Assembly (NCBI GenBank): GCA_027315005.1
Contig: DAHUZT010000114.1
Span: 62,001 to 126,000 of the forward strand
Length of the DNA: 64,000 nucleotides
Origin: Acidimicrobiaceae bacterium
GTDB lineage: Bacteria > Actinomycetota > Acidimicrobiia > Acidimicrobiales > RAAP-2
Reading direction: 5' to 3'
The translations under genes were made by a program, and so were the position numbers. Positions 1 to 17,719 of the stretch are shown here, in pieces (within the stretch, counting starts at the first letter, position 1; each line of letters starts with the position of its first letter). The notes under the pieces are model-generated. The model was not told the origin of the DNA. It ran no database searches and saw only the letters and a program-made list of their open reading frames with translations.

Positions 1-500
1 GCCGGCGACCCGAGGCCTCCGGCACCGAGCAGGAGCACCTTCGAACCGAGGAGCTTCAGCTGGCCCTCCTCCCCCACCTCGGGAAGCAGCAGTTGACGCT
101 GGTAGCGGTTCCGCTGCTCGGGCGTGAGCGTCTCGGGCACCGACCAGGACCGGTGCTCGTCCTTCCACCGGTTGAAACCGCCTCGGAGGGAGGTGACGTC
201 GGTGTACCCCAAGTGCTGGAGGGTCTGGGCGGCGAGGGCGGAGCGCGCGCCGGCTGCGCAGTAGACGAACAGGTGGCTCGATTTGTCCGGTATCCGCCCC
301 TCGACGGAGGGCTCGAGGGTCCCACGCGGGATGTGGATGGCGCCAGGAAGCGCGCCCTGGTCATACTCGTCTGGCTCGCGTACGTCGAGGACCACCGCGC
401 CACCCGCAGCGATCTCCTCCTCGGCCTGAGCGGGGTCGATCTCACGAATTCCGGCCTTGGCCTGGGCCAGCATCTCCCTGAACGTCGGCACGTCGATCAC
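1..500 (-). CDS. ThiF/MoeB-type adenylyltransferase with N-terminal rhodanese domain (MoeZ/MoeB-like), truncated at window start
   Basis: Reverse-strand reading from GTG at 500: MIDVPTFREMLAQAKAGIREIDPAQAEEEIAAGGAVVLDVREPDEYDQGALPGAIHIPRG...LFVYCAAGARSALAAQTLQHLGYTDVTSLRGGF (rhodanese, CAAGARS loop), then LTPEQRNRYQRQLLLPEVGEEGQLKLLGSKVLLLGAGGLGSPA (ThiF/E1 nucleotide-binding start). Confidence 0.85.
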   Translation of the reverse strand, partial: MIDVPTFREMLAQAKAGIREIDPAQAEEEIAAGGAVVLDVREPDEYDQGALPGAIHIPRGTLEPSVEGRIPDKSSHLFVYCAAGARSALAAQTLQHLGYTDVTSLRGGFNRWKDEHRSWSVPETLTPEQRNRYQRQLLLPEVGEEGQLKLLGSKVLLLGAGGLGSP

Positions 501-11183: not shown

Positions 11184-11909
11184 TCAGAGAGCCAGAGTCT
11201 CACCGCCGTCGACGACGAGGGCCGCCCCGTTGACGAAACCTGCTGGCTGTGAACACAGGAAAGCCACCACCCGACCGAAGTCGCCCGGGTCGCCCATGGG
11301 TCCCACCCCTCCGAGCTCGCGCATCCGGTCGGTCGCATGCGGCCCAGGGCAACACAGATTGAGGGTGACGCCCCGTGCCTCCTCGGCCAGATCGTGGGCG
11401 GCCGTCTTCACCCAGGCCCACAGTCCGGTGCGTGCGGTGTTGGACAGGGCCAGCCGGGGGATGGGCTGAACCACCGAGTAGGAGGCGATGCAGCAGATCC
11501 GACCCCAACCTTGCCGGCCCATGACCGGCACCCCCGCGCGGACCAGCCGTATCGACGAGAGCAGGTTGGCGTTGAGCGCCGACTGGAGATCCTCGTCCTC
11601 CACATCGAGCGCCCGGCCCGGGGGTGGTCCACCGGCGTTGGCCACCACGATGTCCAAGCCGCCGAACGCCTCGACCGTGGCCTCCACCAGCATCCGAGGT
11701 ACCGCCGGATCGGTGACATCTGCCGCCACCGTCTCGACGCGGGTGCCGCCGGCACGCAGTGCCGCTCCCGCCTCGTCCAGCGAGCCGTGGTCGCGTCCGC
11801 AGATCAGGACCTGGGCACCTTCGGCGACCAGGGCCTCGGCAGCCGCCCGCCCCAGTCCACGGGAAGCAGCCGTCACCAGCGCGGCCCGCCCCTCGATCCC
11901 GAGATCCAT
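11184..11909 (-). CDS. SDR family oxidoreductase
   Basis: ALVTAASRGLGRAAAEALVAEGAQVLICGRD...VVANAGGPPPG...; TGATG overlap with the upstream M24 gene. Confidence 0.9.
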   Translation of the reverse strand: MDLGIEGRAALVTAASRGLGRAAAEALVAEGAQVLICGRDHGSLDEAGAALRAGGTRVETVAADVTDPAVPRMLVEATVEAFGGLDIVVANAGGPPPGRALDVEDEDLQSALNANLLSSIRLVRAGVPVMGRQGWGRICCIASYSVVQPIPRLALSNTARTGLWAWVKTAAHDLAEEARGVTLNLCCPGPHATDRMRELGGVGPMGDPGDFGRVVAFLCSQPAGFVNGAALVVDGGETLAL

Positions 11910-13063
11910 CAGACGTCCACCACCACCAGATCATGGTCCACACGGTTCACCGGTTCGGGCATCCCGTCCCCACCGATGACCACGATGTCCTCCAGCCGCA
12001 TGCCGAAGCGTCCCGGAACGTAGATGCCGGGCTCGACCGAGAACGCATGACCGGGGACGAGCGGCTCCCGGTTCCCCACCACCAGGTAGGGGTCCTCGTG
12101 TTCCTCGATCCCGATGCCGTGGCCGGTACGATGGATGAAGTGGTCCCCGTACCCGGCGTCCTCGATGACTGAACGGGCCGCTCGGTCCACGTCCTCGGCG
12201 GGTACACCCGAGCACGCGGACCTGACCCCGGCCTCCTGGGCGAGACGAAGGACCTCATAACATTCCGAGATCTCGGGGTCGGGCTCGCCGGTCACCACCG
12301 TGCGGGTGATGTCCGAGCAGTAACCCACGTCGTCCCCGAGGGACCAGGAGCCGCCGAAGTCGCATACGACCGTCTCTCCTGCCCCGATCACCCTCGAACC
12401 CGGCTCATGATGAGGGCTCGCGGCATTGGGGCCGCTGCCTACGATGGCGAAGTTGACCCGGCGGTGACCCTCAGCGAGCAGCAAGGCACCGATCTCGTTC
12501 GAGACCTGGGCCTCGGTTCGGCCGACCAGGTCGATGTCGCCTGCCTGCAAGGAGGCGGCCACCCGGTCGGCGGCCGCTCCCGCCAGCCGGAGCGCCTCGA
12601 CCTCCAGAGGGTCCTTGACGGCGCGGATGGGTCCGGTCACGGCCGACGAACTGGACCAACGGGCCGAAGGGAGCCGCTCCTCCAAGGCGAGCAGTGAGGT
12701 CGCCCAGGTGCGATCGGAGATGGCCAGGTGCGATCGCCCCAACTTGTCGGACAGCAGGCCCGTGACGAGTGACAGCGGGTTCTCGTCGTCCGCCCAGGCT
12801 TCGATCCGGAAGAGATCGCCTTCGGTGGGCACCCGCGGCGCCTCGAGGGCAGGGACGACGAGCACCGCTTCCCCATCACGGGGCAGCACGAGCACGGTGA
12901 GGCGTTCCAGGGGCATGGCCGTGTACCCGGTGAGCCACGGAAGGTCGGCCCCCAGGGAGAGCAGCAGTGCACCCACCCCCACCTCCTCCATCCGGGTCAG
13001 CACTCGGGAGATCCGAGAGCGTCTCGCTTCGACGGCGCCGGTGGCGGACGCATCCATGCTCAC
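11909..13063 (-). CDS. M24 family metallopeptidase (Xaa-Pro aminopeptidase-like)
   Basis: Creatinase-like N-terminus plus CDFGGSWSLGDDVGYCSDITRTVVTGEP...HRTGHGIGIEEHEDPYLV...FSVEPGIYVPGRFGMRLEDIV. Confidence 0.92.
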   Translation of the reverse strand: MSMDASATGAVEARRSRISRVLTRMEEVGVGALLLSLGADLPWLTGYTAMPLERLTVLVLPRDGEAVLVVPALEAPRVPTEGDLFRIEAWADDENPLSLVTGLLSDKLGRSHLAISDRTWATSLLALEERLPSARWSSSSAVTGPIRAVKDPLEVEALRLAGAAADRVAASLQAGDIDLVGRTEAQVSNEIGALLLAEGHRRVNFAIVGSGPNAASPHHEPGSRVIGAGETVVCDFGGSWSLGDDVGYCSDITRTVVTGEPDPEISECYEVLRLAQEAGVRSACSGVPAEDVDRAARSVIEDAGYGDHFIHRTGHGIGIEEHEDPYLVVGNREPLVPGHAFSVEPGIYVPGRFGMRLEDIVVIGGDGMPEPVNRVDHDLVVVDV

Positions 13064-14805
13064 ACCAGTGCCGCCGGCTGTAGGCCGGAACCTGATGCGA
13101 GGCAGGATGCGGCAGCAGCCTCACGTGCGTGGTAGCTCGATCGGGTGAGCGGGGATGCCTGAACGTGGGCGAATCCCATGGAGGCAGCCGCCCGGGTGAT
13201 GACGTCGAATTCGTCGGGGGTCCACCACCGGGACACCGGTAGGTGCCTGGTGCTCGGACGCAGGTACTGGCCCACCGTGACGATGTCCACGCCCACGGCC
13301 CGTAGATCGGCCAGCGCCGAGAGCACCTCGTCCATCTGTTCGCCCATCCCGACGATCAACCCCGACTTGGTCGTCAGGCCGGCGTCTTTGGCCCGGGCCA
13401 GCACGGCCAGGCTCCGGGCATAGCCGGCCGAGGGTCGAACGGCTCGCTGCAGGCGAGCGACGGTCTCCAGGTTGTGATTGAGCACGTCGGGAGAGGCGTC
13501 GAAGATGGTACGCAGCGCGACACGTTCGCCCTTGCAGTCGGAGATGAGCACCTCGACCACCGTCGAGGGTGAGCGCTGTCGAATGGCGGCAATGGTGGCG
13601 GCGAAGGCGCCTGCTCCGCCGTCGGACAGATCGTCGCGCGCCACGCAGGTGACAACGGCGTGTGCCAGGCCCATGCGTTGCACGGTTTCCGCCAACCGTG
13701 CCGGTTCCGAGGTGTCGAGCGCCAGGGGGCGTCGGGTGTCGACCTGGCAGAAGCCGCAGGCGCGGGTGCACCGAGATCCGTTGATCATGAACGTGGCGGT
13801 CCCATCGGCCCAGCACTCGTAGATGTTGGGACAACCGGCCTCCTCGCACACCGTGACCAGATCATTGCGACGGAGCTCCTGGCGGAGATCGAGGAACCCG
13901 CTCTCCATGCGCGCGGGGACCCGCATCCAGGTTGGTTTCCGGGCGGTGGTGCCCAATCCACCGGCTGGCTCGATACCTGCTCGACGCAGCCGACGGTCGA
14001 GGGACCGTTCACCCCTGGTGTCCCCGAACGCCACCGCAACCGGTTTCGGATCATTGGTACCCCTCGGCTCCGGCAGAGGGTGGACTCGGGACGACCGGGA
14101 GCTCGAGGTCGCCGGGCTATCCCGCCGAGAGCCGGCGTCGGTCACTCTCTGGACGTCCTCGATCGGGCCCCAGGTGGCATCCGCCGAGGCGATGACCGCA
14201 TCGAGCACCTCGGGTATGGTCGCCGGAATGCCTTCCGCCTCGAGTGACGTCACCCCGAACCCGACGATGCCGCAAGGCACGATGTGTTTGAACATGGCGA
14301 GGTCGGTTGTGACGTTGAGGGCGAACCCGTGGGTGGTGCGACCCTTGGAGGTCCGGACCCCGACGGCGCAGACCTTGCGCGGTCCGGTCCCCGATTCGGT
14401 GCTGCCACCGTCCGGTCCGATCCAAACTCCCGGAAAGCCCTCGAGCCGACCGACACTTCCGGGGGGAGACCCGAGCGCCAGCAGTGCGTCGATCACCATC
14501 TGCTCGACGAGATGGACGTGTCCTACCCCCCGCTCCATCCCGGAACCGATGGTGAGCAGCGGGTAGCCAACGAGCTGGCCCGGACCGTGGTAGGTGACAT
14601 CCCCTCCTCGGTCCACGTGCACGAGCTCGGCTCCGACCGCGGCCGGATCGCAGAGCACGTGGTCGGGATCACCGCTTCGACCGATCGTGTAGACGGGCGG
14701 ATGCTCGAGGAGCAACAGATAGTCCTCGTCGCTCCGCGCGCTCAGGGCGCGCTGCAGGTCCCACGCCTCGCGGTAAGGGACCCGTCCCAGCCAGCGGACC
14801 TTCAC
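13060..14805 (-). CDS. lipB-lipA: Bifunctional lipoyl(octanoyl)transferase LipB / lipoyl synthase LipA fusion
   Basis: LipB half: RGGDVTYHGPGQLVGYPLL, RKVCAVGVR, THGFALNV, HIVPCGIVGFGVTSL. LipA half: RKPTWMRV, CEEAGCPNIYECW (CX4CX5C), CTRACGFC (CX3CX2C radical SAM), GLIVGMGE, VTVGQYLRPS, RSSYHA. One uninterrupted ORF. Confidence 0.92.
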   Translation of the reverse strand: MKVRWLGRVPYREAWDLQRALSARSDEDYLLLLEHPPVYTIGRSGDPDHVLCDPAAVGAELVHVDRGGDVTYHGPGQLVGYPLLTIGSGMERGVGHVHLVEQMVIDALLALGSPPGSVGRLEGFPGVWIGPDGGSTESGTGPRKVCAVGVRTSKGRTTHGFALNVTTDLAMFKHIVPCGIVGFGVTSLEAEGIPATIPEVLDAVIASADATWGPIEDVQRVTDAGSRRDSPATSSSRSSRVHPLPEPRGTNDPKPVAVAFGDTRGERSLDRRLRRAGIEPAGGLGTTARKPTWMRVPARMESGFLDLRQELRRNDLVTVCEEAGCPNIYECWADGTATFMINGSRCTRACGFCQVDTRRPLALDTSEPARLAETVQRMGLAHAVVTCVARDDLSDGGAGAFAATIAAIRQRSPSTVVEVLISDCKGERVALRTIFDASPDVLNHNLETVARLQRAVRPSAGYARSLAVLARAKDAGLTTKSGLIVGMGEQMDEVLSALADLRAVGVDIVTVGQYLRPSTRHLPVSRWWTPDEFDVITRAAASMGFAHVQASPLTRSSYHAREAAAASCLASGSGLQPAALV

Positions 14806-14844: not shown

Positions 14845-16206
14845 CTAGAGCTCACCGGCCCAGTCGCGTTCGTCGAGGATACCGGCGAACCGTGCCAAAT
14901 ACCGGGCAACGTAGGCCCCGTCTACGGCACGGTGGTCGAAGCTCATGGCGACCAGTCCGACGGAGTGGATGGTGATCGATTCCGTCCCGTCGGGTAGCTC
15001 CACCACGACGGGCTTGCGGGAGACTCCGTCGGTCGAGAGGATGGCCACTTGAGGCTGGTTGATGATCGCTCCGGTGATCAGCGTGCCGAAGGGTCCTGCG
15101 TTGGTGATGGAGAAGGTGCCACCGCTGATGTCGTCGAGACTCAGCCGCTTGGTCCTCGATCGATCGGCGACGTCGCGGACACGCCGGGCCATGCCCCGCA
15201 GGTTCAGCTCTTCAGCATTGTGGACGACGGGGACGATGAGGCCCTCGTTGTCGAGGTCGACGGCGATGCCCAGATTGATGTCCCGATGCACGATGAGGGC
15301 GTCATCACCGATCGACGAGTTGAGGTTCGGAAATTCGGCAAGAGCCTCCACCGCAGCTCGGGCGGCGAAGGCCAGATAGGTGAGGCCGAACCCCTCTTCG
15401 GCCCGGAACCGCTCACCGAGGGTCCGGCGGACCTGCTCCACCCGTTCGTAGTCGATCTCCTTCACCATCAGGGTGTGGGCCGAAGTGGCCTTGGAGCGAA
15501 CCATGTGCTCCGCGGTACGCCGGCGGATATTGGTGAACGGGACGACGATGTCCCGCTCCGCGGGCGCCGGGGCCAAAGGAGTCACGGTGGCCTGCTGTCG
15601 TTCAGGTTGTCGGCGGTCACGTCCGGCCGGAGGGGATGCGGAGGCTGAGGTGCTCGGGGCCGGTTGCCGACCTGCGATGTTCGGCACCGGAGTGGGTCGT
15701 ACGACCGATCCGGACGCGGCGAGGTCGATCGCCTCCTCGACGTCGGCCCGGGTGATGCGACCTCCGAGACCGGTCCCTTCGATGCCGGCGGGGTCGAGCT
15801 CGTGCTGGACCAACAACTTGCGCACCACCGGGGACAGCACCGGCGCGCGACCATAGGTGTCGGAGCTGCCGACCGGGCTACCGCCGTCGGCCTTGCCACC
15901 GCCGTCTGCTGCGGGCGCCGGTACGTCTTGGTCCGCTGGTACGTCCCGCGTCCCGACAGCGTCCGAGGCGGCACCGTCACCGATCACCGCCAGCCGGGCC
16001 CCGACATCGACGGTGTCACCCTCCTCCACGATGATCGCGGTGAGTACACCGGCTGACGGTGAAGGCACCTCGGAGTCCACCTTGTCGGTGGACACTTCGA
16101 AGAGGGGTTCGTCCCGCTCGACCGTGTCGCCGACTGACTTGTACCACTTGGTGATTGTGCCCTCGGTCACCGTCTCTCCGAGTTGCGGCATGGTCACGTC
16201 AGCCAA
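14845..16206 (-). CDS. 2-oxo acid dehydrogenase E2 component (dihydrolipoamide acyltransferase), single lipoyl domain
   Basis: MADVTMPQLGETVTEGTITKWYKSVGDTVERDEPLFEVSTDKVDSEVPSP; peripheral subunit-binding domain; C-terminal catalytic MSFDHRAVDGAYVARYL. Confidence 0.94.
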   Translation of the reverse strand: MADVTMPQLGETVTEGTITKWYKSVGDTVERDEPLFEVSTDKVDSEVPSPSAGVLTAIIVEEGDTVDVGARLAVIGDGAASDAVGTRDVPADQDVPAPAADGGGKADGGSPVGSSDTYGRAPVLSPVVRKLLVQHELDPAGIEGTGLGGRITRADVEEAIDLAASGSVVRPTPVPNIAGRQPAPSTSASASPPAGRDRRQPERQQATVTPLAPAPAERDIVVPFTNIRRRTAEHMVRSKATSAHTLMVKEIDYERVEQVRRTLGERFRAEEGFGLTYLAFAARAAVEALAEFPNLNSSIGDDALIVHRDINLGIAVDLDNEGLIVPVVHNAEELNLRGMARRVRDVADRSRTKRLSLDDISGGTFSITNAGPFGTLITGAIINQPQVAILSTDGVSRKPVVVELPDGTESITIHSVGLVAMSFDHRAVDGAYVARYLARFAGILDERDWAGEL

Positions 16207-17719
16207 CGTGCAGCCCCCTTCCGGTCAGGGCCAGCATCGTCTCACCGAACGACTCGGACAGCGACGGATGTGGCTGGATGTACTGCGCGACCTCCTCGGC
16301 CGTCGCCTCCCAGTTGACAGCGAGATAACCGGCACCGAGCTGCTCGGTCACCCACGGTCCAACCATGTGGACGCCGAGCACCCGCCCGGTCGTCCCGTCG
16401 GGTCGCCGTTCGGCGACGACCTTGACCAGGCCGTCGGTGTCGCCGATGATCCGGGCACGGCTGTTGCCACCGAACGGGTCCTTCTTCACGATCACCTCGA
16501 ACCCTGCGTCGCGGGCCTGGAGTTCGGTCAGGCCGGCGAATGCCACTTCAGGATGGCAGTAGATGGCCCAGGGCACACGGTCGTAGGCGACCGGAACCAC
16601 CGGCTCACCGAGGACTCCCTTGATGGCCACGATGGCTTCGGCAAACCCCACATGGGCGAGCTGCGGGGTCCCCGCTGCAACATCCCCGACCGCGTACACC
16701 CCGTCCGCTCCGGTTCGCATCACCTCGTCGACGACTACGAACCCTTGGTCGTCGAGCTCGACACCCGTCCCGGAGGCCAACAGCCCCTCGGTCCGGGGGC
16801 GTCGACCCACCGACACGACGGCGGCGTCCACGGCCAGCTTTTCGCCTCCGTCATAGGCGATGACCGTCCCGCTTCCCGAGGGGTCCGGTGTGTGGCCCTC
16901 GATCCGTGACCCGGTCTTCACGTCGATCCCCCGCTTGCGGAAGGAGCGGGAGACGGCCCGTACGACATCTTCGTCGCAACCGGCCAGGATGGTGTCGAGG
17001 GCCTCGAAAATGGTGACCGCGCTCCCTAGATCCGAAAGGAACGAGGCGAACTCGCAGCCGATGGCACCGCCACCGATCACCGCTACGGACGCCGGCAGCT
17101 CGTCCAGGTCCAGCACTTCGTCGGAAGTCATAACAAGTCGCCCGCGAACCTCGAAGCCGGGGATCGTCTTCGGCACCGAGCCTGCGGCCAGCACGATGCT
17201 CGTTCCGGTCAGCACGGTGGTCGTCCCTCCGGGGCCAACGACCTCGACCTGATGCCCCCTGAGCAGCCTGCCCCTCCCGGGGAAGGTGACGACGTTCCGA
17301 CCCTTGAGCAGCCCTTCGAGACCATGGAACAGCTGATCCACCACCTGGTCCTTGCGGGCCTGGCTGACCGCGAAGTCGACGCTGACCCGACCTCGGTGTT
17401 GGTCTCCCACGGGACCGCTCGACGCACCGACACCGAACGCCGCGGCGTTGCCCACCGTACGGGACACGGTCGCCGTCTCCAGGAACTCCTTGGCGGGCAC
17501 GCAGCCGCGATGGAGGCAGGTCCCCCCGACCTTGTCGAGCTCCACGATCGCGACGGACAGGCCCGCGGACGCTCCGTAGAGGGCGGCGGCGTAGCCACCC
17601 GGCCCACCCCCGACCACCACCACATCGAACGTACGGTCTTCTTCACCCTCCGGCCGGCTCTCCCCCGGTGCCGATCCATCGCCTGTCACCTTCGGTACCG
17701 TGGAAACCACCTCCGTCAT
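16199..17719 (-). CDS. lpdA: Dihydrolipoamide dehydrogenase (E3)
   Basis: VVVVGGGPGGYAAALYGA...GGTCLHRGCVPAKEFL...GGGAIGCEFASF...HPHPSLSESFGE; overlaps the E2 start. Confidence 0.94.
   Translation of the reverse strand: MTEVVSTVPKVTGDGSAPGESRPEGEEDRTFDVVVVGGGPGGYAAALYGASAGLSVAIVELDKVGGTCLHRGCVPAKEFLETATVSRTVGNAAAFGVGASSGPVGDQHRGRVSVDFAVSQARKDQVVDQLFHGLEGLLKGRNVVTFPGRGRLLRGHQVEVVGPGGTTTVLTGTSIVLAAGSVPKTIPGFEVRGRLVMTSDEVLDLDELPASVAVIGGGAIGCEFASFLSDLGSAVTIFEALDTILAGCDEDVVRAVSRSFRKRGIDVKTGSRIEGHTPDPSGSGTVIAYDGGEKLAVDAAVVSVGRRPRTEGLLASGTGVELDDQGFVVVDEVMRTGADGVYAVGDVAAGTPQLAHVGFAEAIVAIKGVLGEPVVPVAYDRVPWAIYCHPEVAFAGLTELQARDAGFEVIVKKDPFGGNSRARIIGDTDGLVKVVAERRPDGTTGRVLGVHMVGPWVTEQLGAGYLAVNWEATAEEVAQYIQPHPSLSESFGETMLALTGRGLHVG

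Follow-up and report, generated by a model that had tools for sequence, protein, structure and literature searches.

A class-wide LipB-LipA gene fusion in Acidimicrobiia, probably encoding a bifunctional octanoyltransferase-lipoyl synthase

The window, that is the whole stretch of 64,000 nucleotides analysed here, carries on its minus strand a single stop-free frame of 581 codons, with a GTG start at 14805 and a stop at 13060, whose product joins an octanoyltransferase (LipB) to a lipoyl synthase (LipA) (Table 1). Genes for an E2 acyltransferase and for E3 dihydrolipoyl dehydrogenase adjoin it directly upstream on the same strand, as an earlier sequence-only reading of this DNA had stated; the single lipoyl domain of this E2 is a substrate for lipoylation. 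The window E2 resembles actinobacterial SucB, but its score with TIGR02927, 350 bits, falls short of the cut-off of 423. At the other end, the fusion gene overlaps a gene for an M24 metallopeptidase, and this gene order is the same in near relatives; the peptidase is likely not part of the lipoate function. A scan for promoters and terminators gave nothing above chance and was uninformative at this GC content.

Table 1. Position of the fused gene, of its domains and residues, and of the adjoining genes
Feature	Residues	Position	Strand	Basis or remark
E3 dihydrolipoyl dehydrogenase, 8 nt overlap with E2		16199..17719	-	TIGR01350 above cut-off
E2 acyltransferase, one lipoyl domain, 39 nt upstream of the fusion gene		14845..16206	-	Pfam 2-oxoacid_dh, Biotin_lipoyl, E3_binding
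Fused lipB-lipA gene		13060..14805	-	open frame, NCBIfam and Pfam
LipB octanoyltransferase domain	1-212	14170..14805	-	NF010925 and TIGR00214; fold match 1w66
LipB motif RGGDVTYHGPGQLVGY	66-81		-	sequence read
Codon of catalytic Lys144	144	14374..14376	-	invariant in 83/83
Codon of catalytic Cys178 (acyl-enzyme cysteine)	178	14272..14274	-	invariant in 83/83
Linker	213-270	13996..14169	-	low conservation; LipA structure match begins at 271
LipA lipoyl synthase domain	271-566	13108..13995	-	TIGR00510; fold match 5exk
Auxiliary-cluster motif CEEAGCPNIYECW (CX4CX5C)	320-332	13810..13848	-	Cys 320, 325 and 331 invariant
Radical SAM motif CTRACGFC (CX3CX2C)	346-353	13747..13770	-	Cys 346, 350 and 353 invariant
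RSS of C-terminal RSSYHA, auxiliary-cluster Ser ligand	555-560 (RSSYHA)	13135..13143	-	invariant
M24 metallopeptidase, 4 nt overlap with the end of the fusion gene		11909..13063	-	open frame and Pfam

Both halves of the protein are recognised as complete enzymes. Pfam assigns residues 11-206 to LplA-B_cat and residues 344-499 to Radical_SAM, and curated models exceed their cut-offs on either side, with NF010925 (170.2 bits, cut-off 155; residues 1-208) and TIGR00214 (124.7 bits, cut-off 83.55) for LipB and TIGR00510 (345 bits, cut-off 310.25; residues 287-566) for LipA. In a fold search the halves resembled the Mycobacterium tuberculosis enzymes, namely LipB 1w66 (TMt 0.82) and LipA 5exk (TMt 0.94, 52% identity). 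The solved LipA aligns from residue 271 of the fusion and the solved LipB stops at about residue 210, so that the true joining stretch corresponds to residues 213-270. The span of the linker, given in the sequence-only reading as about 14140-13945, is accordingly refined to about 13996-14169. All the motifs named in that reading are present in the protein, and the known acting residues of LipB and LipA are 100% kept in an alignment of 83 fused homologues. The Cys/Lys dyad of LipB (PMC9307952) and the role of the LipA RSSY serine as a ligand of the auxiliary cluster (PMC12246082) have been described. The M. tuberculosis LipB (1w66; TIGR00214 / NF010925) shares with the window protein the whole domain, the dyad, the RGG loop and the fold, but the window protein runs on in frame into LipA; likewise, the M. 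tuberculosis LipA (5exi-5exk; TIGR00510) agrees with it over the whole domain, in fold, in the two cluster motifs and in the RSSY serine, whereas the LipA N-terminus of the window protein is preceded by the linker and LipB instead of a start codon.

Sampling within the class confirmed the same in-frame fusion in 83 genomes and, as an overlapping set, in 42 named records. The 83 comprise 30 loci from the window genome and its relatives (30/30 of the loci read), 13 that were first counted as doubtful, and 40 further class genomes (40/40) chosen because their match had come in two pieces. The doubtful cases, in which internal stops were reported or frames were short, resolved into these 13 fusions, fragments at contig ends and one frameshift inside LipA. 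Among 148 relatives, a single frame covers residues 2 to about 567 in most matches, and lipB and lipA are fused in every class relative in which the gene could be read whole. The named records include Acidimicrobiales, Candidatus Microthrix, the isolate Acidiferrimicrobium, Candidatus Actinomarina / OCS155 and deep Acidimicrobiia bins, a breadth that indicates a trait covering the class; of the fused records that bear loose labels ("Actinomycetes bacterium", "bacterium"), those included in the tree group with the class. The fusion was also found in complete chromosomes of the class, a search for the LipB+LipA architecture having been proposed for complete actinobacterial genomes. Thus, the single polypeptide claimed at the outset, one 581-residue frame in which both domains exceed curated cut-offs, is conserved across the class, which supports it far better than one window could. 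An assembly or binning artefact might be suspected in a draft genome of 130 contigs; it is nevertheless next to impossible and was rejected, since the independent assemblies of many relatives carry the same fusion, including the single-contig genomes G091, G095, G149 and L043 and the isolate L058.

Outside the class, lipB and lipA were separate neighbouring genes in all 35 loci read (Rhodococcus, Dietzia, Nocardioides, Streptomyces, Nocardiopsis, Kocuria, Actinomyces, Azovibrio, Thiomicrorhabdus and others), so that Actinomycetes such as Rhodococcus, Streptomyces and Dietzia share the order and strand with the window locus but keep two genes. None of 20 candidates from other classes of the phylum, picked out of 297 sampled genomes for their long or near-continuous frames, was fused. 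Long frames around LipA in other classes were rejected as fusions, as no LipB or LplA domain occurs in the three that were scanned, which had no separate lipB nearby.

Within the class, no convincing fission was found in more than 80 genomes. In L126 (G332), on a contig of 1.65 Mb, the linker is in frame and a frameshift lies inside the LipA domain; this is probably an indel error, or else a damaged gene, rather than a re-split pair. The fragments in G318 and G276 end at contig ends and were rejected as well. No LipB-LipA match was obtained in 16 of 247 class genomes, nor in 7 of the 175 of good quality, and these 7 would reflect either assembly gaps or a loss of lipoate synthesis.

The phylogenies fit one fusion event, which we place near the root of the class, within an older E2-lipB-lipA cluster. 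In the LipA tree, a branch with an SH-aLRT of 90 sets the halves of the fused proteins apart from the outgroups. The LipB tree unites the unfused Actinomycetota in a single clade (93), and its remainder consists of the fused sequences; both trees are quick ones without bootstrap. The root of the LipB tree and one of its rows (L118) join a long outgroup branch uncertainly, and a single origin is therefore less clear from the LipB half. Of the 81 fused loci that could be tested, 72 (counted by eye) have an E2 gene immediately upstream, no more than about 120 nt away. Rhodococcus and Dietzia also have E2 upstream of their separate lipB-lipA pair, and the cluster thus probably existed before the fusion. 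The stop and the start between the neighbouring lipB and lipA would then have been lost once, before the Acidimicrobiia diversified, and the fusion kept since. In five bins of marine Acidimicrobiia or with a Microthrix label (L048, L049, L051, L053 and L055), only 57-59 nt separate the fusion gene from an upstream E3 gene, and no E2 gene was found nearby; in this branch, E2 appears to have moved out of the cluster.

The linker is the least conserved part of the fused protein in the 83-sequence alignment, with a length of 29 to 99 residues, and residues 226-262 of the window protein (14020-14130) are predicted to be disordered (pLDDT < 50). Its end is partly conserved, with RLxxAGVxPxxGL ahead of KPxW, and this stretch matches the N-terminus of native LipA. 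Such poor conservation would fit a simple tether. The stop or frameshift that might have gone unnoticed in the linker, a possibility raised in the sequence-only reading, did not appear: all the fused loci that were read, from more than 80 genomes, have an open linker. From base composition alone, a stop-free linker has a joint log10 P of about -19 over 24 divergent lineages, and a chance of 0.002-0.005 for each Actinomarina-type member (about 33% GC). These data bear on a neutral account of the fusion, in which the loss of the stop was fixed by drift and the linker is a flexible tether without effect beyond joint expression. The weak conservation and variable length of the linker agree with this account, as does the fact that the parent genes would already have been adjacent and co-oriented, like those of the split relatives. 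However, a neutral fusion should sometimes break in so diverse a class, and this one shows no clear fission and is unbroken even near 33% GC, where stops arise easily. We consider neutrality possible but somewhat unlikely.

Two products might also arise from the one frame, the full-length protein and a LipA started within the linker. The in-frame GTG suggested near 14040 is indeed present, at about 14034 (residue 258), and in-frame GTG or TTG codons occur in the linker of many members, including the window gene. Yet the GTG at 14034 has no Shine-Dalgarno-like sequence ahead of it and its position is not kept in relatives. Across the 83 members, linker starts stand at shifting, non-conserved positions; only 28 have a linker start codon with a Shine-Dalgarno-like stretch, and 4 have no ATG, GTG or TTG anywhere in the linker. 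Internal initiation can therefore not be a general route to LipA, although it may yield additional free LipA in certain species, and we regard a regular pair of products as improbable. The full-length protein is probably the working form.

Taken together, the gene very probably encodes one bifunctional octanoyltransferase-lipoyl synthase, fused once and kept class-wide, with a probable benefit of proximity at the E2 complex. By analogy with the known families, LipB would act before LipA. The LipB half would load octanoate from acyl carrier protein onto Cys178 and transfer it to the lysine in the lipoyl domain of E2, and likewise in GcvH, after which the tethered LipA half would add two sulfurs from its auxiliary Fe-S cluster. 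The fusion would set a 1:1 ratio of the enzymes and hold both active sites close to the same E2 complex, so that an octanoylated lipoyl domain might meet LipA quickly. In E. coli, according to Hassan and Cronan in 2011 (J Biol Chem), LipB and LipA reportedly both co-purify with the 2-oxoacid dehydrogenases; if so, the fusion could be a permanent form of this on-site assembly.

Direct hand-off, or channelling, of the octanoylated carrier protein by the fusion, as suggested in the sequence-only reading, is plausible. Strict tunnelling is unlikely, since a third protein, the lipoyl domain, bears the intermediate; a mere closeness of the sites at the E2 complex claims less and is more probable. 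The bifunctional enzyme might, in a stronger version of this idea, be a true channelling machine: its halves would be packed in a fixed manner, and the octanoylated lipoyl domain would move between the two sites without ever leaving the enzyme. The window protein and an Actinomarina protein, which are 42% identical, gave AlphaFold models with pTM values of 0.90 and 0.92. By the definition of pTM, this suggests a confident relative placement of the two halves and a defined domain arrangement, although a model is no proof of binding; such values would be hard to reach with randomly placed halves, and the absence of a verified fission in the class points the same way. On the other hand, no solved structure covering both halves came up in the structure search, the linker varies in length over the range given above, and the LipA enzymes of other bacteria function as separate proteins. 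We hold this packed machine to be rather doubtful, and we are just as tentative about its broadest formulation, that the ancestral class-wide fusion is a defined two-site enzyme which would lipoylate the neighbouring E2 in a single docking, with octanoyl-E2 never accumulating. Proximity in a bifunctional enzyme is the reading that we prefer.

The two enzymes are known separately, and what is new is the LipB-LipA architecture and its fixation across a class. The closest known arrangement is NF053790 (LplA_LipA_fuse, lipoate-protein ligase/lipoyl synthase), in which LipA is likewise preceded, within the same polypeptide, by a carrier-modifying enzyme; that enzyme is a lipoate ligase, however, and the window protein matches the LipA half only (340.6 bits against a cut-off of 800, profile positions 330-605). 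Among the NCBIfam models matching the window protein, one is for this LplA-LipA fusion and none for LipB-LipA. No account of a LipB-LipA fusion turned up in the open literature that we searched; PMC10332631 discusses fusions of lipoate ligases. Such proteins may well carry a multifunctional label in automatic databases already. The passage of the octanoylated domain from LipB to LipA has been little tested, and a natural fusion kept for so long offers a test case. Moreover, the fusion marks the Acidimicrobiia in a simple way, and it matters for annotation and for surveys of pathways: these usually count lipB and lipA as separate genes, and the whole class may thus be miscounted.

In the window genome, the fusion holds the sole LipA. 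There is one GcvH, and no lipoyl-domain E2 was found besides that of the operon; all remaining Biotin_lipoyl matches lie in biotin carboxylase or carboxyltransferase proteins. The same genome (L002) encodes on contig 42, at 1432-2448 of the minus strand, a protein of at most 339 codons with weak similarity to LplA/LipB (39.5 bits; 23 bits to LplAB, far below cut-off), which by its sequence is possibly a relative of the lipoate ligases.
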